From Coniochaeta sp. PMI_546 (lineage: Eukaryota > Ascomycota > Sordariomycetes > Coniochaetales > Coniochaetaceae), in assembly GCA_021432605.1 (NCBI GenBank), contig MU271144.1, positions 1,732,606 to 1,796,605 on the forward strand: a stretch of DNA of 64,000 nt, given 5' to 3'. Shown here piece by piece: positions 24,005 to 36,847 of the stretch. The notes under the pieces are model-generated. The model had not been told where the DNA came from, searched no databases, and worked only from the letters and a program-made list of their open reading frames with translations. A program made the position numbers and the translations under genes. The number at the start of each line of letters is the position of its first letter. Positions within the stretch are counted from its first letter, which is position 1.

Positions 24005-25645
24005 ATGTCTGCCTCCCTCCTCCCCGTTGCCCTCTATGGGCTTGAGGTTCCTCCCGGTGAGATCGCCATGCGCGCTGCTCCCGACTTCCCTGCTACCGTA
24101 AGTCACACATGTCTTTCTCTCTCATTGATTGCACAGCAACTCCTATACGTGCCGCATTGAGACTTGAGGAACCCAGAGGTAAACACCATGACATACCAAA
24201 ACTAACATGCCCCAGATCCGGATTACCATGGCCGCTATCGATCCTACGGAGGCGCCTGAGGCTGATGAGGACGGCAATATCCCTACCGTTCCCCGTGCCA
24301 CCCTCAAGATCCTCAAGAGTCGCATGGGCGGCGGCGAGGATGACGAGGATGATTCGTACCTTGACGGCCTGTTGAACGGCGAGTACAGCGACGAGGATGA
24401 TGAGGATGACGAGGATGACTCCGAAGACGAGACCAACGGTGGCCCAAGCGACCCCGCCAAGTCCAAGAAGGCTCGCCAGGAGGCTGCCATCAAGAAGCTT
24501 ATCGAGGCTGCTCAGAAGGACGAGGACTCCGATGAGGAGATGGATGAGGCCGAGGGTACCCCCAACGGCACCAAGAGCAAGAAGGGCAAGGAGAAGGCCA
24601 GCGATGAGGATGATGACGAGTCCGATGAGGACAGCGAGGATGAGGACGAGCTCGAGGAGTTCGTCATTTGCACACTCGACACCGAGCGCGTAAGTTTTCA
24701 CTGGAACTCCACGATGCTCCCTACAGGGCGACTAACCTGGTGACACAGAACTACCAACAACCGCTGGACATCACCATTGGCGAGAATGAGAGAGTCTACT
24801 TCCTTGTCTCGGGTACGCACACCATCCACCTCACCGGCAACTACGTCGTCGACCCCTCTGAGGAGGACGACGAGGAGGATGACGAGGATGACTACGACCT
24901 CCCCCCCGGCATGGAGGATGTCCTTGACGGTGACGATAGCGAGCTGAGCGATGAGCTCGACGAGCTTGACGACATGGAGCGCGTCAAGGAGATCGACACT
25001 GACGACGAGGAGGAGGCCCCCAAGCTCGTCAAGGCTGACAAGAAGGCCGAGAAGAAGGGCAAGAAGCGCTCTGCTGAGGACGACGCTGAGAACCTTGACG
25101 AGATGATCGCCAAGGATGAGACCAAGCTCAGCAAGAAGCAGCAGAAGAAGCTCAAGAACAACAAGGGTGAGGCCGTCGCCGCCGAGGAGAAGAAGGATGC
25201 CGCCAAGGAGACCACGCCCAAGTCCGACAAGAAGGTTCAGTTCGCCAAGAACCTCGAGCAGGGCCCTACCGGCTCCGCTGAGAAGGCCAAGACTGCCGAC
25301 AAGAAGGCTACCGGCGTCAAGGTCGTCAATGGTGTCACCATCGACGACCGCAAGCTCGGCTCGGGCCGCACCGCCAAGAACGGAGACAAGGTCAGCATGC
25401 GCTACATTGGCAAGCTGACCAACGGCAAGGTCTTTGACTCCAACAAGAAGGGCACCCCCTTCAGCTTCAAGATCGGCAAGGGTGAGGTTATCAAGGGTTG
25501 GGACATCGGCATCGCCGGCATGTCCGTCGGTGGCGAGCGTCGTCTCACCATTCCTCCTCACCTCGCTTACGGCAGCCGGTCTATGCCCGAGATCCCGGCC
25601 AACAGCACCTTGATCTTCGACGTCAAGCTGTTGGAGATCAAGTAA
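24005..25645 (+). CDS. Nucleolar FK506-binding peptidyl-prolyl isomerase (FPR3/FPR4 type)
   Basis: Three exons, 24005-24097, 24216-24689 and 24749-25645, give 487 residues. The joints give '[17 protein letters not shown]' and '[19 protein letters not shown]'. The N-terminal nucleoplasmin-like fold (about residues 1-60 and 185-225) is interrupted by a long acidic tract. More acidic and Lys-rich blocks follow up to about residue 375. The last ~110 residues are an FKBP domain: '[21 protein letters not shown]', '[27 protein letters not shown]', 'IPPHLAYG'. Fpr3/Fpr4 act as histone chaperones and prolyl isomerases in the nucleolus, and Fpr4 isomerises prolines in the H3 and H4 tails. The architecture fits; the nucleolar role is from the family. 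Neighbours give no operon-like hint. Confidence 0.93.
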
Positions 25646-26445: not shown

Positions 26446-29400
26446 ATGAAGCGGTCGCTGCCAACGGAAGGGGACGATGATAGCAATACACCCCATCCAG
26501 GACGCCATGGCAGTGGCTCAGCGCCGAGTAAGACTGACCCTCCGCCACCGAAGTTCCGCAGGAAGGGCAAGGGTATCATGTCGGCACTGCGGACTTTGAC
26601 GGCCAGCGGTAGCGGTGCGTATGAGCACTCGCCTTCGTGGCTTATGTGAAGTGTGTGAACAGTTGAGCTCATGATTCTATTAGGGTCCGATGGGTCTACT
26701 TCCATCGACCGTGAGGGCTGCCTTCCAACACCACCGACAAGTCCCGCAAAGAGCTCAAGGCACAAGACCTCCTTCTCGCAGCGCATCAGCAGAGTTAACA
26801 CGCTCTTCCGCGGCCCCTTTGATGGATCGTCCAGCCACAAGTACAAGCCAAGAGAGAGACCTTCGATCAAGAGCCAACAATCTGTCGAGACGACGGACAC
26901 CGTAGAGACTGGCAGCGTACTCTCTCCTGCCTCCTCGAAAACTGCTACCACCGCATCCAGCTCCAATAGCAATGTAATTTCTGTTAAGTCCCCTATTTCG
27001 ACAGGAAAGACATCGGTGGACTCGAGATTCACGTCTGCTTCTGCCCAGGAACGAGACCATCACGGCTCGGCCGAGAAGAAGCAGTTGAACAGCGGCACTG
27101 TCATCACTCGGCAACACCCTGGTGCCCATATGCGCTCCAGCCCAGACGGCAATCTCACGCCTATCGAAGAGACAGCTCTTGACTACGCAAACGTGACGAT
27201 CCTGACGGTCGAGAGGGCCGCGGCAGCCAAGATCTATCTGGAAACTTACTTCAACGACCTTCTGTTGCCCGGGCCGACGCCTCGAGATATACGTCGGCGG
27301 AAGCTCGAGACAGAATTGCATAGACGGATGCACGACGAGAATTTTACACCAGAGGAGCAGGAACAGATGCGTGCCGATTACTGTCGCCGTGAGACTGAGC
27401 ACCTCCGAGAGAACAGAGTCATGAAATCACGCAGTATCCGTGCGCTCACTGCAGAGAGAGGGGACCCCGGGGGACGACTCGATGATGAGTATGAACTCTT
27501 GAAGATACTGGGCAAGGGTAGCTTTGGTGTGGTGCGGCTGGTGAAGGAGAAATCTGGAGGCGAGCTCAATGCCGACGGTACTCCAGATCCTCCGCAGAGG
27601 CAAGTCTATGCAATGAAGGTGATCCGCAAGTCTGATATGCTTCGGACGAGCCAAGAGGGCCACCTCAGGGCAGAAAGAGACTTTCTGGTGGCTTCTGAGG
27701 GATCTGACTGGTATGATTTTCTCGTTCCTGTCCTACTCGTCTTCAAGCCAGATAAGTGTCTATTTACTGACGCAGACACAGGATTGTGCCCCTTGTCGCA
27801 AGCTTCCAGGATGCGGCGAATCTCTATCTAGTCATGGAGTACATGCCCGGCGGCGACTTCCTCGGCCTCTTGATCAGAGAAAACATCCTGCACGAGACAG
27901 TAGCTCGTTTCTACATCGCAGAGATGATAGTCTGCATCGAAGCAGCTCACGCTCTGAAGTGCATCCATCGAGACGTCAAGCCGGACAACTTCTTGATATC
28001 GGCCTCCGGCCACTTGAAGATCAGCGACTTTGGTCTCGCCTTCGACGGCCACTGGAGCCACGACATGGGATACTACAACAGCCACCGGTACAGCCTCATT
28101 CACAAGCTGGGAATCGCCGTCGAGGGAGACGAGCAAGACAAGGAAGAGGCTCGCAGCGTGCAGGCCACGCTGAAGTGGACGAGCAGCATTATGACTGGCA
28201 TTGCGAAGCATGACAAGAAGCAACCGGACGACGGCGAGCCCCTGCTGAACTGGAGAAACAGGTGCGGAAACCGTACGTCGGCGATGAGTGTGGTCGGAAC
28301 AAGTCAGTACATGGCTCCCGAGGTTGTCGCTGGCAAACCATACGATGCCAGGTGCGACTAGTGGAGCATTGGCGTAATTCTGTATGAGTGCATCTACGGA
28401 CATACGCCTTTCCTTTCGGATGAGGGACGACAGATGACCAAGCACAATATCTTGGTATGTCCTTTCACGATTCCCATCCGGTTGCATACGCTCACGATAC
28501 AAACAGAGACACCACGAGACGCTAGGTTTTCCCGCGCGCCCTCCGGTCTCGCATAGATGCCGACAGTTGATGGAGGCCTTGATACGGGACAAGGAAGATC
28601 GGCTCTCTTCGAAGCGCTACAAGTTCAAGGATCTGACCTCGGCATCGCCCGCTTTTGCCAACATAGCCACAGCGTCGAGCAGCAGAGCAGGAGCAACGAC
28701 AGGCAACTCTGGCCCAAAAGATTTCCGCGGCCGCTATGTGTTCCCCAACGACGCAGAGGACATCAAAGCCCACAAGTGGTTCCGGGGTATCCCATGGGAC
28801 CGGCTACACCAGCTCGAGCCACCCTTCGTGCCGCGGATCAGGGCCGTCGACGACACACATTACTTCGACGAAGAAGAGGAGATCAGCGACTGGAGCGACA
28901 GCCACACGACAGAAGGCCCAGACGACGCCACACCCACCATCCCGCAGAGCCCTCATCGACACAATCCCGTCGTCGCAAACTCCAACCCCCTCTCTGCGAC
29001 CGCCGTCCCCTCCTCCCCCCTTCCTACAGACCCTCACTTCCTCAACCTCACCCTAACGCCCACAACAACCTCCACCGCCCTCCCCCTCCCAACCCTCCCC
29101 TTAATCCCAACCCCCCACGCCCCAACCATCCGCCAAGCAAGGGAAGAAGAAGCCCGACTCTTCCTCCGCGGCCTGCGCCGGAGCATCCAGAAGTGGGCCC
29201 TGGCCGCAATCACCCTACCCTACGACTCGACCCGCGTCCAATCACAACTCGACGCCCTGCCCGGTCTGGACGCGGCCGAGCGCGCCAGGCTGCGGCACTT
29301 CGTCCGCCTCTTCGGCAGGAAGGACCGCAAGCGGCCGCGGGACAGGCTGCTCCGCGACCGCGCCACGAAGGGCGTGGTCATGGATGTCAGGAAGAGGACG

Positions 29401-29769
29401 GCGTTTCTGGGGTATACTTGGAGGCGGATGAGGCCTGTTGGGCAGCAGCGGGGGGTGCTGCCGGGGTGGCACAACGGGATGGGGTCCGGAGGAGCTAGGG
29501 GGGAGGGGGAGGGGTCCGGCATGGGTATGGGCGGTACGGCGCATGGTGGTGGGGGGGACGGGATGTTTGAGCGGGAGGGGTTGAGGCACGGGTTTCCCGG
29601 GTATGGGTACGTTGGCGGCGTTGCTGCGGGCGGGCTTGGAGAGGAGTATGATTTTGACTATGGGTTTGGGTGGACTGGGGCTGGTGCTCGTGCTGGGGCC
29701 GGACCGCACTGGGAGAATGTTAGTGCCTTTAGGGCGCTGCATGGCAAGGGGAGGTTTAGTTGGCGGTGA
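26446..29769 (+). CDS. PUK1: NDR/AGC-family kinase, PUK1-like, with an in-frame TAG at the DWWS motif (candidate A-to-I edited stop)
   Basis: Four exons, 26446-26614, 26684-27710, 27782-28454 and 28507-29769, give 1043 codons if the TAG at 28359-28361 (codon 592) is read through; unedited, the product is 591 residues. A Mob-binding NDR-type region lies at about residues 226-303. The kinase domain begins near residue 326: 'ILGKGSFGVV', 'YAMKVIRK', 'HRDVKPDN' (Asp463), 'DFGLAF' (Asp481), a ~70-residue insert, 'SVVGTSQYMAPEVV', then 'YDARCD' stop 'WSIGVILYEC'. All other NDR kinases have Trp-Trp here. Conserved sequence continues through 'GHTPFLSDEG', 'RHHETLGFP' and 'FRGIPWDRL' (about residue 715). 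Frame and splice sites after the TAG are intact, which argues against simple decay. A long low-complexity tail ends with 'TAFLGYTWRR', like the NDR hydrophobic motif. The best match I know is F. graminearum PUK1; orthology is inferred. Confidence 0.85.
28359..28361 (+). other. In-frame TAG codon, predicted UAG-to-UGG recoding site
   Basis: The TAG replaces the first Trp of the kinase subdomain IX motif DWWS; the next codon is TGG. The adenosine at 28360 follows a T, the -1 base favoured by fungal A-to-I editing. Sequencing error or a real null allele are the alternatives. Confidence 0.7.
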
Positions 29770-30179: not shown

Positions 30180-33100
30180 CTACAGCGTCTCCCACCCCCC
30201 ATTGTTGATATCCGCCTCGAGCTTCCGGGCGATGAAGCTCGGCACCCCGTGGCCCAGCCACAGGTTCCGGAGGAAGGTGTCGTAGCGCTTCTGGTGCAGG
30301 AACAGCTCCCGGCCGTGGCGGAGGCCCATGTCCATCTCGCCGTACTGGTCGATGTAGGGCGCGTTGGCGAAGCTGCCGCTCTGCCGGTGCAGCATGAAGA
30401 CGACGCAGCGGCGGATGTTGAGGAAGAGGCCTATTGTCTTCTGGCACCTGTTTTTTTTTTAATCAAACACTCTGGTTAGTATTACAATGTCTTCTTTGAG
30501 GGAACAGTGGGGGTGGTTCGGTGTGATGTGAAACGGTGTTGAGTGTGAAGAGAAAGGGGGGGAAAGACGTACTTGGCTATATGCTGATTCGCCCCGCCAA
30601 CAGTGACCTTCTTCGGCCTCCTCGCGCCGGCAGGGAAGGGCATCTCCCTGGAACAGCATATCCCCTGCCCGCAGAACACCTCGCCGCAGAAGAGGCAGAC
30701 CATGGGGTCTGACAGGTCTCGGCCGGTCGTGGGACATCTGCGCCGCGTGCACAGCTCGATGAGAGTGCCGTATTTCTCCGGCAGGCCGACCAGCTCGAAG
30801 ATGCCAGGGTGGCTGACCAGGGCCGAGGGCGGGAGCTGCGGGTTGAGGCTGCTGCGTACCACGCCGCCGCCGCCGCCGCTCGGACTGGCTTCCGTGAGCA
30901 TGGGTTCCTCCGTCGAGCCGTGGGGCCAGTAGACCTGGTGCTTGACCCAGCCCGCCACCAGGCGCTGCGTCACCGTCGTGTCGGCGGGCCAGCCGCACTG
31001 CGGGCCCAGGGGGGTCAGGGCGGTGAGCATCTCGTCGAAGGACGGCAGCCTCAGGGCCTCGGTCAGCCGCTCGAGCTCCTTCTGCTCCGGGGAGGGCGAG
31101 ATGTGGCTGTTGAAGTCGACGCCGTACTTGACGTTGAGCAGCACGACGCACTTGCGCGCGAAGGCCAGGGCGTACTTGCGCACGAACTTGTACCAGCCCT
31201 CGAAGTCGTCCAGGCCGGCCTGGTCGAATCCCCTGTTGGCGGCGGCGTCGTCCGAGTCGCCGCGGACCTCGAGGCCGATGTCGGACAGGGCCGCGACGTC
31301 CATCCTGAGCAGCGCCTCGCAGAACTGGGCGAAGTTGTCGAGCGAGGGGTCCATCTCCCGCGGCCTGTTGACGATGCGTTCGATCCACTGCGCGGCCGGC
31401 ATGTTGCGGCCCAGGTGGTAGACGACCTTTGTGATCTCGGCGAGGTAGCAGAGGCGGACCATGTGGGAGATCTCGAAGTTCTGGGCCGGGATGACGCCGA
31501 AGACGCACTCGCAGAGGAAGATGAAGGGATCCACGCTGAGGAGCGGCGGGTAGATGTCTGCCGGTCGGTGCGTGTTGTCCGTCTCCTCGCCGAGGTACTG
31601 CGCGATGAAGAGCTGGCAGTGCTGCCGCTCGCTGTCCTTGCGGAACTCGGTGTCGATGCGGTTCTCGCCCGCCTCTCGCTGGCCTCCGACGGCGATGTAG
31701 GATGTCACGGTCTCGGCGAGCACGCGGAGGTGGGTGAGGACCTGCTCCGGTATCTTCTCCAGGAACGTCAGCCCGTACTCGGCTTCAACGCCGCGCTGCT
31801 GTATCTCCACGGCCGAGATCGAGAACCCGACAGCTCGCGCCAGAGTGTCGCTGGCGCAGAGCTCGTTCCTGCTCCCCGCGGAATCGCTATCCCGTGCCCT
31901 GGGCCGCTTCTCCATGATATGTCTGGTCTCCAAGCCGTTCTCGCGGATCGAGTCGCGCAGACGGCGGTATGCGGCCGTCAGCTCCTTCATCATGCCGTCG
32001 TTCGCCGGCTCTGGTTCGGCGCCACTCCGCCCGGCCAGCAGGCCCCCCGGCGCGATGACAAATGTCTCGCTGAATGGCGTTCCGCTCGCCGTGCTGCTTC
32101 GCTTTGCGGACTCGGCCCAGGCATCCTCGAGCAGCTCCGACGAGCGCTCCGCGAGCTGGCCGTTCATGATCTGCGACGTGTACGTCGCAAAGGAGTTTTG
32201 GACCTGATCGGTCGGCCGGGGCGCACCGAGCACGTAGTACCCGGAGTGCAGTTGTGTGTTGAGCCACTCGTCGAACGGTACCGGCGCCTGCAACGGGCCG
32301 GGATACGACTCTTCCTTACCCTTCCACACGATAGGGAGGAAGGCATTGCCGAGGGCCTTGCAGAGCGGGCACACGAACTCGAGCCTCTCCACATCCTCGG
32401 GCGGATGGCGGGCAATCTGCGAAGCGTGGCGTCGCACCGTCGCCTCGAAGTACATCTCAAAGCAGGAATAGTGCATGATGTGGCCGCATCCGATAGAGAC
32501 CGGGCCAGGCCGAGACAGTTTGGACGGGAAGCCTTTGCCCAGAGTCTGCAGCTCCGTTGCAAAAGTCTCGCCAGACCGGTTGACCTTTTGCACGGATATC
32601 CTATTCTCACCAGCAACGCCGAACGGCCGGATCGCCTCAGCTGACCGGTCCAGATTCTCGGGGACATTGGAGGCTTCCCTCACGAAGTCTGGGTCCTGCA
32701 GGTCCGTCTGTCGGACGATATTGCTTTCCATGAGGAAGGCGAATGTTCCGTACAGCTGGTGGTCGTCTGTGTCCTCCTGACACAAGATGCAGGTGCCAGA
32801 AGGGTACTTCCAGAAGTTCTTGTGCTCCTCAGCTGGAGGAAGCTCCTCATCCTCGTCGACGTCCACATCACCCCAGTCAATGTTGTCTTGATTGGCCATG
32901 AAGCTCTTCTGCTGCTGCTGGAATTGCGCCATGACCCTCGCTTGTCGGTCGAGGGCGGCCTTCTTTTTCTTCTCTCTCTCTTCATCTGCCATGGTATTTG
33001 CGGGCGAGGCGGTGTTGATACGATCCACCGAAAGACCGAGATGGTGATAGGCGTAGTCGAACATGTGTGGCTGCTTCTGTCGCATTCTCTTCAGGATGAG

Positions 33101-36100
33101 GTTTATCTTTGGATGGGACGACTTATACTCCTCCTTTGTCGTCATCAGGTTCAGCAACGCCACGATAGTCTTAGCCTGAGGTGCGTCAGGCATGAAGTTA
33201 CTGCGTGCGTTTCGCGAGAGCGCTATCGACACAAATGAAGTTTGCGACTGGTCCAGCTCGTTGGTGTTGTCTTCGGAAATGGCGATGAGGATGAGATGAA
33301 GGACGACCTGGAGGAAGGTCTCAACCCTGGTGAACTGGACATCCGGAGTTATCTTTCTGAAAACCATTGTATATAGCAGAGAGTAGTAGATGATCTGAGC
33401 GAACATTCCCGTCTTCGTGCAGTCGGCCAGCCCAGCAAACGCACCGGAGCTGATGGGACGGAGCTTCGGCTCGTAAACAACGTCCTCCACCGGCTTGCCG
33501 GTCTTCTTGGCCATTATCTTTCGATAAGCCAACTCAGCCTCTTCGCGCTGGTTCTTGTTGTAGTGCGCGATGTACGGGTCAATCTCTTCAACAAATTCCG
33601 GCTTGAGCTCGAATGTGCCAACGTCCGTTAGCCCTTCTGGTGCCTTGAACGTCGTCATTTCCTTCAGAAGCGCCTGGAAATCTTCGTGGTCCTGGAACTT
33701 GTCGGGCAGCTTTTGACCGATATCCGAAAAAGACAACGGCTTGAAGCACAGGACGTGGATCAGGTCTCGTCGCATAGCCAGCAGATTCGAGGGTGTCTGC
33801 TCGTCGTTCTGCATGAGCGATGTCCTGTCGCTGAGAAGAACGACTAGTAGATGGATCATGTCCTCCACGACGTCAAGGTGCTGCGTGTCGTCCTGCGCCT
33901 TGGACTTCTGCTCAAACAGGCCCTTGACCCATTTCTCCATACCGAACCGCTCAACTATCGAAGCCAGGACGCGGCTCGGGTTGCAGACCACCAGCGCCGT
34001 CTGCAAGAGAAAGATGTCCCGGTGGTGTGAGACATCTCGCTGGACGACACCTCTGTAGGTACCTGCCTGGTGTCGTAGGCTTAGTCCGTTGCGCACCCAC
34101 ATGCCCGCCTTCATCTGGGCAAGCCATGCACAGACTCTCAGGGGATAATCAAACAGGGCCATGAGGTAGTCCTCGGGATTCAAGTCACGCCTCGGCATCC
34201 ACTTCTTGCCCATGGAACGAGGTTTCATGGTCAACTCCTGGGTTGTGAAGGTAAGAAGGTCCCTCAGTTCGCGCACGGGCATCGACTTGCCGCACTCGAT
34301 GAGATAAGAGAGGGTATAGTGGAGGGCATGGTGGAAGCTGATGGGCTGCTCTTCGACAACAAACTTCACAACCTCGAACTCCCGGTCCGAATCCTCAAAT
34401 TCAAAGTCGGTCAGCGTCTTGAACTTGACCTCGTCCTTGATCTCGGCCTGCTGGAAGCGGTGCCGCTCGGCGCCGATCGAGTTGATTATGACGTTCTTAG
34501 CGACAAGTCGGATGGCCTGAGCGACGTATAGGAGATCCTCTCCCTTGAGGTTACGGAAGGCCTCGGAAAACTGACGACAGAGCCTGTTAACCTCTCGCGT
34601 TATCAGGGACGCGCTGATCCAGCCGTCGGCTTCGTACTCGATGTGCTCTCCGACGGCCCGCACGTTAGGACAGATGCCTTGGTGCAGTTTCACGAGGTCG
34701 AGGAACTGCATGATGTATCTCTGTTCCGTCCGCAGCTTCTCTTGGACGTGCGGCGAAGCCATGAGGTACTTCAGGTCCAGGAAGAAGTGGTACATCCGCC
34801 TGTTGGTGACCGAACCGGTGTCGAAGGATAGGACTGCGGAGGAGGAAACATCCCATGGGTTACCGACTTGCCTAGCAGTCAGAAATGTGTAGAGGATGGC
34901 CATCAGGTTGGTAAGGAAGTTGCCGCGCTCAACGACCTCGGCGGTGATGGACGGCGTGGTCAATATTTGCAGGGATAGATTTATGATAGAGTGGTCCGGC
35001 TCGCGGTCGCCGATCAAGTAGAGCTGTGCCAACGTGGTGTAGAGGCCAGCGAAGCGCAGGCCGAGAATCCGCTTGAACTCGGGCACAGCGACAATTGTAG
35101 AGATGTACAGGGAGCGTAGATCGTTACGCACACGCTTCCACATCCTCAGGTCAAATAATATTAGCCAGTCGAGCCGTACGCGTTCGAAGATGTTCTCCGC
35201 GACAGGTAGGTTGTCTTGCTCGACATAACCCTCCGGAGTACCCAGCCAGTAGACCCCTGGCTTGGGCGGCGGCGCTTTGTCTCCTTTTGCCAGCCCAGGA
35301 GTCTTTGGAATCTCGAGGTGTGATTTTGAGTAGACCATGGGCGGGATGAGAGGCTCGGCAGTATCGGAATCGGACGGTGTGAGCTCACGGTCCCGGATAT
35401 GTCGACGAGGTGCTGGTGGAGGCGGCGGGGGAGGTGGAAACCCGCCCATCGTCGCTTCGCCGACTTCCAGCTCTTGACGAGCAGCTTGTAGAATGGCTTC
35501 TATAGGTATCTGGCCCACCAAGTCGGCTGTGTCAAGCATGACGACGTCCTCCTCGTCGTCATCATCTTCCATGTCGCCGATGAGAGACTGGGTGTCCTCC
35601 ATCTCTTCTTCCTCTTCCTCGTCTTCCTCGGCTGCCTCTTCTCGCCGCGCCGCCTCCCGGGCTCGCATGAGAAAGGCAGCTTGTTGTAGGTAGAGCTGAT
35701 CCGGTGACGGGCCTTCGTCTTCGATCTTGTTTTCGTCATCGATATTCCCGACCATGGCATGTGTACCCGGGCTTCCCTTCGACCAAGGTTTGAGCAATTC
35801 CTCGCACACCAGTTGCCGCATGATGAAATGGTCGTTGCCGACCGAACAGCCGGATATATCCAAGAGCCACTCGACGATGCCGCCACACATCTGTTCTCGA
35901 AATGTGTCACGCGACGACCGGATGGTGACCGTCACCCTGATCCTCTCTAGTATCTCGGCCACCTCAACCAGCTTCTCGATGTCGTTGTCGTACATCACGA
36001 TACTGCGCCCGATGGCATCCGTCTCGTATGCTCGCTCCATACCCTTTGCAAGTGACACCTTGCAAGCCCGGGCCACCTGCTGTTGTACATCTTGAACGGT

Positions 36101-36847
36101 ATGCTTCTCGTCATTCCACAGGAGCACGGCGTATTCGCCGGGCGATTCCGTGTCTCCGCCGCAGTACATGGACGATAGACGCGACTGCCTCTCGTCCTGC
36201 TCGATCGACTCGACAGTCTTGACCTGGCGCAACTGCTCGGGGGAGCACGACAAGACGTCGCACATGTAGTCCACCACGCGACTGATGGTCATCCGCATGC
36301 TATTGACGAGGTCTTCCGGCAGAGCATCGTCCTTGCCCTTTCCCTTGTCCTGCGGGTTCTCCCAGAGCGAGTGTATGGTGCAAAACATGGGTACCTTCCA
36401 AGCCTCGGGGTCGCCACAGTCGCAGCATCCACTGTTGCCGGACGAGATGCTGGTCCTGATGATGTGGCCGGTGTGATCGGTCGAGTCGAAGCATTTGCTG
36501 CAGAGGCAGCACGTCTCGTCGACGCTGCAAGTCCGGCAGTAGTATGTAGCCTCGCCGGCCTTGGTGATGTGACCGCAGGCCTTGCCCCGGGCAGCCTCGG
36601 TATACTCCGCGCCCTCGACGGCGCCCTGAGCCTCCTTTAGCTTGGGGACGACTCCTTGGGGGCGGGACGGGATGCCGTCGGGGAAGAATAGCCTCATGTA
36701 GTCCGGCTTCCCGCCGGCGAGCGACCAGAAGAGGCTGGTGACCAGTTCTCGTTGGGCATCGTTCGTATATCGGTAGTGACATTGGGCTGGGAGGTCGCGG
36801 AGGAACTGGCAGAGCTGTTGCTCTTGGGTTGACATGGATATCTCCAT
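30180..36847 (-). CDS. UBR1: E3 ubiquitin ligase UBR1 (N-recognin of the N-degron pathway)
   Basis: Two exons on the minus strand, 36847-30573 and 30447-30180, give 2180 residues. The 125-nt intron (GTACGT donor) joins 'ANQHIAK' to 'CQKTIGLFLNIRR'. The UBR box (about residues 90-160) has the zinc-binding Cys/His set from 'CGHITKAGEATYYCRTC' to 'DCGDPEAWK'. A ClpS-like domain follows ('NDEKHTVQDVQQQVARACK', near residue 250). The RING-H2 domain is at about 1350-1500 ('CILCQEDTDD', 'GCGHIMHYSCF', 'CPLCKALGN'). The C-terminal autoinhibitory domain has 'RRCPTTGRDL' and 'CLFCGEVFCGQGICC' (about 2030-2075). With Rad6 it recognises basic and bulky N-terminal residues and marks proteins for the proteasome. 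An acidic, Pro-rich loop lies between ClpS and the middle region. A second in-frame Met is at residue 5. Confidence 0.96.

Follow-up and report, generated by a model that had tools for sequence, protein, structure and literature searches.

A candidate premature-stop-correction site in the PUK1/stk-21-type kinase gene of Coniochaeta sp. PMI_546

Introduction

What might explain why the gene of a conserved protein kinase in Coniochaeta sp. PMI_546, a fungus placed in the Coniochaetales (Sordariomycetes), carries a single TAG between the Asp and the second Trp of its D-W-W-S motif, at the place of the first Trp? The same motif has been described as a site of A-to-I mRNA editing in other Sordariomycetes. 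According to the account of PUK1 orthologues in PMC4817773, Fusarium graminearum PUK1 has UAG-UAG at this place and Fusarium verticillioides has UGG-UAG, both edited in perithecia, Neurospora crassa NCU03242 (stk-21) has UAG-UGG, also edited in perithecia, and the DNA of Magnaporthe oryzae and Claviceps paspali already has Trp codons there. In the mutant work described there, adding two UAA stops behind the site left the F. graminearum allele unable to rescue the mutant, and non-editable N. crassa stk-21 alleles also fail to rescue in the experiments described in PMC7306014. For Coniochaeta we found no report of A-to-I editing or of RNA editing of stop codons in a library of open-licence papers.

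Results

The TAG is codon 592 of the kinase coding sequence (positions 28359-28361, plus strand, in frame) in a window of 64,000 nucleotides, by which we mean the whole stretch of DNA that was analysed, located at 1,732,606-1,796,605 on contig C2 of a 33.5 Mb genome of 24 contigs. The next codon is TGG, and the candidate edited adenosine is the middle base of the TAG, 28360. The kinase gene and its neighbours are as follows.

26446..26614, plus strand: exon 1, beginning at an inferred start codon
26684..27710, plus strand: exon 2, N-terminal region and kinase N-lobe
27782..28454, plus strand: exon 3, catalytic loop, DFG, long insert, APE and D-stop-W-S
28507..29769, plus strand: exon 4, last part of the kinase domain followed by the C-terminal region, closed by the natural stop TGA
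24644..25645, plus strand: FKBP/nucleoplasmin-like gene, upstream neighbour of the kinase, given as a stop-to-stop frame with its start not settled
30485-36847, minus strand: UBR1-like gene, neighbour of the kinase gene, its product 100% identical to a Coniochaeta sp. PMI_546 protein across the 801 residues used as query

The four exons comprise 1,044 codons, with a frame of 1,043 residues that is open apart from the TAG, and all introns are GT-AG. No other internal stop occurs, and without editing the product would be 591 residues long. A sequence-only reading of this DNA had placed a TAG, followed by TGG, at the first Trp of DWWS in an otherwise open kinase frame, with intact splice sites and a truncated product of 591 residues; its coordinates were exact, and the truncation is supported.

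What kind of kinase is interrupted? Codons 1-591 match the PF00069 profile with 125.4 bits (best stretch, profile positions 1-148), and the part after the stop scores 24.7 bits over profile positions 181-255, under the curated threshold of 31.7. Among solved structures, the NDR kinases STK38 and yeast Cbk1 come closest to the part before the stop, and the catalytic K, E, HRD, DFG and APE are all found. A homologue search with residues 215-800, with X at the stop, returned 1,276 proteins, and a second search from a Stachybotrys member returned 3,531; the best 120 matches of each were taken, 64 of the second set being new, to give an analysed set of 184 homologous gene models. The best 120 of the 1,276 matches include no protein named PMI_546. 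A tree of 119 of the 185 rows, built with the motif columns left out and with every second row removed among the Leotiomycetes and the motif-skipping Hypocreales and Xylariales, tracks the orders closely, requiring 12 changes for 11 groups where the minimum is 10 (two changes each for Sordariales and Magnaporthales, four for unnamed rows). Hypocreales (33 rows, support 97), Xylariales (27 rows, 99) and Diaporthales (7 rows, 100) each fall on one side of a starred branch, and the window kinase groups with Coniochaeta ligniaria and Coniochaeta sp. 2T2.1 (starred, support 100). No second copy of the kinase was found in the genome, and the next kinases match part of the query at 42% and 50% identity. 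In the Stachybotrys chartarum model P0101, FKBP and nucleoplasmin-like domains (Pfam labels) are fused to the kinase, and because the gene upstream of the Coniochaeta kinase has both of these domains, the neighbourhood is probably shared with the Hypocreales and this gene order may be ancient. Orthology with PUK1, proposed earlier from the window, is supported by a gene tree near the order phylogeny, the single copy and the FKBP neighbour that Stachybotrys has too. Judged from these comparisons, the kinase is a single-copy NDR-type orthologue of Fusarium PUK1 and Neurospora stk-21.

Is the gene perhaps a recent pseudogene, or one whose function has been lost in a non-editing strain? Compared with Coniochaeta sp. 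2T2.1, identity is 217/230 before the stop and 110/117 after it in columns picked to leave out variable stretches; across whole regions, residues 326-591 are 91% identical, residues 593-700 83% and residues 701-745 96%. The ratio of divergence after the stop to divergence before it, computed on columns chosen to avoid variable stretches, is 1.06 against 2T2.1, which has DWWS, and C. ligniaria gives 1.08. When six distant DWWS species are used for comparison, the ratio is 1.27-1.84 for the window kinase and 1.35-2.01 for the stop-free 2T2.1, and in seven pairs of DWWS species it ranges from 0.43 to 1.56. Because the ratios of the window kinase resemble those of 2T2.1, the stop-bearing lineage has no excess divergence over its congener, and the earlier expectations of a frame conserved on both sides of the TAG and of continued constraint behind it are both borne out. 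Third-position GC is 0.65-0.75 after the stop against 0.61-0.70 before it, which, like the absence of any second internal stop in 1,044 codons, the lack of excess divergence and the presence of editor genes in the genome (see below), speaks against decay, and we consider a pseudogene very improbable.

The kinase complement of the genome, at least 141 kinase-domain matches, includes eight rows with one TAG and no other stop, and among these eight only the PUK1-like kinase has its TAG at a mid-position inside an ungapped conserved stretch. The other seven were rejected as candidates because all seven TAGs lie at exon edges or in intron-like inserts, those at exon edges no more than 7 residues from where the matched stretch starts. 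At the equivalent place, three other AGC-type kinases from the retrieved loci have TGG. The RID-type DNA methylase (PF00145) was also considered as a second corrected gene and set aside, as none of its four domain matches has an internal stop.

Do related fungi share the stop? Gene predictors bypass such stops with false introns, as remarked in the treatment of gene models in PMC4817773 and PMC11169179, and a motif skipped in a gene model can for that reason serve as a proxy for a stop. Stops in relatives were deduced in this way from residues skipped in gene models, with stops at the first and at the second Trp pooled in the counts. Of the 184 models, 57 read D-W-W-S or D-Y-W-S, 126 skip the motif and one (Thozetella) ends just past both Trp residues. 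With rows assigned to orders from genus names, the motif is read in 23/23 Leotiomycetes, 7/7 Diaporthales, 6/6 Magnaporthales, 11/23 Sordariales, 1/2 Coniochaetales, 3/51 Xylariales (in the wide sense), 1/64 Hypocreales, 0/1 Calosphaeriales, 0/1 Glomerellales and 5/5 unnamed rows. Across residues 586-595 the models of Leotiomycetes, Diaporthales and Magnaporthales have a gap fraction of 0.00, against 0.80 in Hypocreales, 0.85 in Xylariales and 0.42 in Sordariales; gaps are also frequent around 346-365 and 666-695, there in all these groups. Row P0009, which we take to be NCU03242 and which is the sole row named N. crassa among the 184, skips the motif and the Pyricularia rows read it, and the proxy is supported by this match to the published N. 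crassa and M. oryzae DNA. The Leotiomycetes are a class in which this editing had not been found to date, according to PMC11156358 and the comparative part of PMC11087585.

Within the genus, the model of Coniochaeta sp. 2T2.1 (P0001) reads DWWS and that of C. ligniaria (P0002) lacks the entire stretch. Given the 2T2.1 model, Coniochaeta does not carry the stop throughout, and its presence seems from these gene models to vary among the species.

The same congener offers the main argument for an assembly or sequencing error, in which the genome would truly have TGG at 28359-28361, since 2T2.1 reads DWWS and the PMI_546 sequence comes from one assembly only. Chance would then have had to strike the very adenosine that is edited in N. 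crassa and F. graminearum, and C. ligniaria, a separate assembly, also has a model that drops the motif; an error is accordingly an explanation to which we give hardly any weight.

Might the skipped residues be a real intron, so that the TAG is removed by splicing or alternative splicing, as predictors assume in many relatives? The CTAG ahead of TGG resembles an acceptor, and 27 of the skipping models restart exactly at the second Trp. A further 31 restart at the Ser after it, of which three (P0036, P0048 and P0090) are ambiguous because the residue preceding the skip is itself Ser, and five have odd upstream sequence. A phase-0 acceptor at the restart would need AG as the last two bases of the codon before it, which TAG supplies. 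In the window gene, 71 GT-AG pairs of 45-200 nt span the TAG and 27 of them are in frame; two of the 27 have a GTRNG donor (28262-28366 and 28352-28508), each deleting 35 codons together with the motif, and the other 25 have none. A narrower check confined to exon 3 acceptors and a strict donor pattern gave 0/22, and the wider count with the looser donor, 2/27, is the one to use. Pairing of editing with splicing of a stop-bearing intron has a precedent in FgBUD14 (PMC11156358). Against this, any such intron deletes D-W-W-S, present by definition in the 57 read-through models, and in the F. graminearum cDNA sequencing described in PMC7306014 the predicted intron was unspliced. From its sequence, a form lacking 35 codons is unlikely to yield a working kinase, and removal of the TAG by splicing seems to us a most unlikely account of its presence.

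Does Coniochaeta sp. PMI_546 have the means to edit the codon? The editor of Sordariomycetes is described, in the portion of PMC11087585 devoted to it, as Tad2-Tad3 with Ame1, and Tad2, Tad3 and an Ame1 of Sordariomycete type, identified by motifs, are all present in this genome; the earlier statement that the editing proceeds without an ADAR is in that respect correct. Tad2 (L029/L036) has H-A-E and P-C-V-M-C, and Tad3 (L032) has H-S-V (H-x-V) and P-C-V-M-C. There are three DUF726 (Ame1-type) genes, and the protein encoded on contig C11 (L023) has M-V at positions -30 and -29 relative to the Ser of G-Y-S, the same two places being K-N in the paralogue on C7 (L022) and L-D in that on C2 (L024). 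In F. graminearum Ame1, as presented in PMC11087585, M-V at 500-501 is essential and replaced an ancestral K-N, and the spacing to S531 is 31 and 30, one residue longer than in the C11 protein, which we take as a one-residue difference because the K-N of the paralogue matches. The matched stretches of the third DUF726 gene (L011, L013, L024) contain one TAG and two TAA, possibly in introns.

The OTT_1508 deaminase domain, known from the OLD antiviral editing proteins of Neurospora, also occurs in this genome, at five loci (L037-L041). Editing of the stop by a deaminase of this type in place of Tad2-Tad3-Ame1 would draw on these loci and on the hairpin and U(-1) preference that OLD proteins share, according to the description of their specificity in PMC12754623. 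The same description has the N. crassa OLD proteins acting on few sites, mainly zao transcripts, and PUK1 mRNA was edited in vitro by FgTad2 from perithecia (PMC11156358), so an OTT_1508-type editor has very little credence here and Tad2-Tad3 with Ame1 is the preferred one.

The nucleotides around the candidate site suit that editor. In the context C-U-A-G-U-G-G, five of six positions (-2, -1, +1, +3 and +4) have the preferred base of the neighbour list for edited sites in PMC9600606, and U at +2 is in neither the enriched nor the depleted list as given there. Folding with the +-30-base window of the same source puts A28360 in the loop of a local hairpin.

28345..28375, plus strand: local RNA hairpin of 31 nt with the TAG in its loop, -13 kcal/mol, z -2.85

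How much does this hairpin say? With 30 flanking bases the hairpin-loop probability of A28360 is 0.98, and loop placement holds from +-15 to +-30 bases and is lost at +-40 or more, where the 28345-28375 hairpin is no longer the favoured fold; with 40-150 flanking bases, or in the spliced coding sequence, at most 7% of sampled structures place A28360 in a hairpin loop. Under the +-30 rule, 32 of 77 UA sites of the kinase coding sequence fall in hairpin loops, as do 376 of the 1095 TAGs counted over the two strands of the window. Eight of the 1095 combine loop placement with an energy of -18.9 kcal/mol or below and at least five preferred positions, the candidate site, at -18.8999996, lying just outside the cut. 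Given a loop placement that varies with folded length and is common among the TAGs of the window, secondary structure was rejected as strong evidence, and RNA structure is weak evidence for editing.

Discussion

The TAG in the PUK1/stk-21 orthologue of Coniochaeta sp. PMI_546 is, from its sequence setting, very probably a premature-stop-correction site of A-to-I editing. In vegetative cells the mRNA, if made, would give a 591-residue protein that stops within kinase subdomain IX and is expected to lack activity. In sexual tissue, Ame1 would redirect the tRNA deaminase Tad2-Tad3, which would deaminate A28360 in the mRNA and convert UAG to UIG; this codon would be decoded as UGG (Trp), making the complete NDR-type kinase of 1,043 residues available for ascospore formation. 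We hold it highly likely that A28360 is edited by Tad2-Tad3 and Ame1 in sexual tissue to give the full kinase for ascospores. The occurrence of editing in this species, its stage and the ascospore role are projected from F. graminearum and N. crassa.

How does the candidate compare with known sites? The closest is N. crassa stk-21, the same gene with the same codon and a single stop followed by UGG, which is known to be edited in perithecia, whereas the Coniochaeta site, in another order, is a predicted one. F. graminearum PUK1 is an orthologous kinase with the same motif, and the first of its tandem stops is equivalent to codon 592; unlike in Coniochaeta, where the second codon is TGG, both UAGs are present and both are edited in 90% of perithecial reads. 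In F. verticillioides FVEG_01191, also orthologous and with the same motif, it is instead the second Trp codon that is a stop (UGG-UAG). The 2T2.1 orthologue is the same gene in the same genus, but its model reads DWWS and has no stop to correct. The single TAG had been presented as a departure from PUK1, a point that has to be withdrawn: NCU03242 is already UAG-UGG and edited in the PMC4817773 account, so the window has the Neurospora arrangement, and the case is less new than the sequence-only reading held.

Is the stop old, or has it arisen repeatedly? Parsimony on the 119-row tree, with two doubtful rows uncounted, gives equal-cost solutions of 14 changes that extend from 2 gains and 12 losses to 10 gains and 4 losses; a single gain entails 14 losses, 15 changes in all, and gains only entail 20. 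Repeated gain is as parsimonious as an old stop with repeated loss, and an old stop, nearly as short as the best solution (15 versus 14), is allowed without being favoured on the count alone. D-Y-W-S is read in six Sordariales rows (P0024, P0028, P0033, P0040, P0097 and P0115) from Cladorrhinum, Podospora fimiseda, Triangularia and Cercophora samala, which form one starred clade. Tyr fits an escape from a former stop because a single step leads from TAG to a Tyr codon and two steps are needed from TGG; a route to Tyr through Cys is also possible. We tentatively entertain, at slightly less than even confidence, a very old Sordariomycete regulatory codon, with one or two ancient gains and about 12-14 losses, which went back to Trp or, in one clade, escaped to Tyr (TAT/TAC). 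What argues for such an old stop is that the pattern returns to a single motif, together with the Tyr clade; against it are the noise of gene models and a second query that lacked the motif and may favour models lacking it. If the old stop is true, the long upkeep of an off-switch removable by one base would speak for selection on stage-specific kinase production, and PMI_546 versus 2T2.1 would provide a within-genus test. Earlier statements on the age of the stop may exist in the literature.

The candidate adds the order Coniochaetales to the range of the first-described fungal editing site, in a genome with the editor genes, and the congener without a stop in its model is a natural comparison. 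It bears on the question of whether selection maintains restorative editing sites or they arise neutrally. Single sites, that of PUK1 included, are held in the discussion of site conservation in PMC5381528 to be not necessarily conserved. The pattern of gene models suggests wide occurrence of a stop at the PUK1 motif, by persistence or by recurrence. For annotation, the loss of this subdomain IX motif from 126 of the 184 public models examined is a systematic fault.
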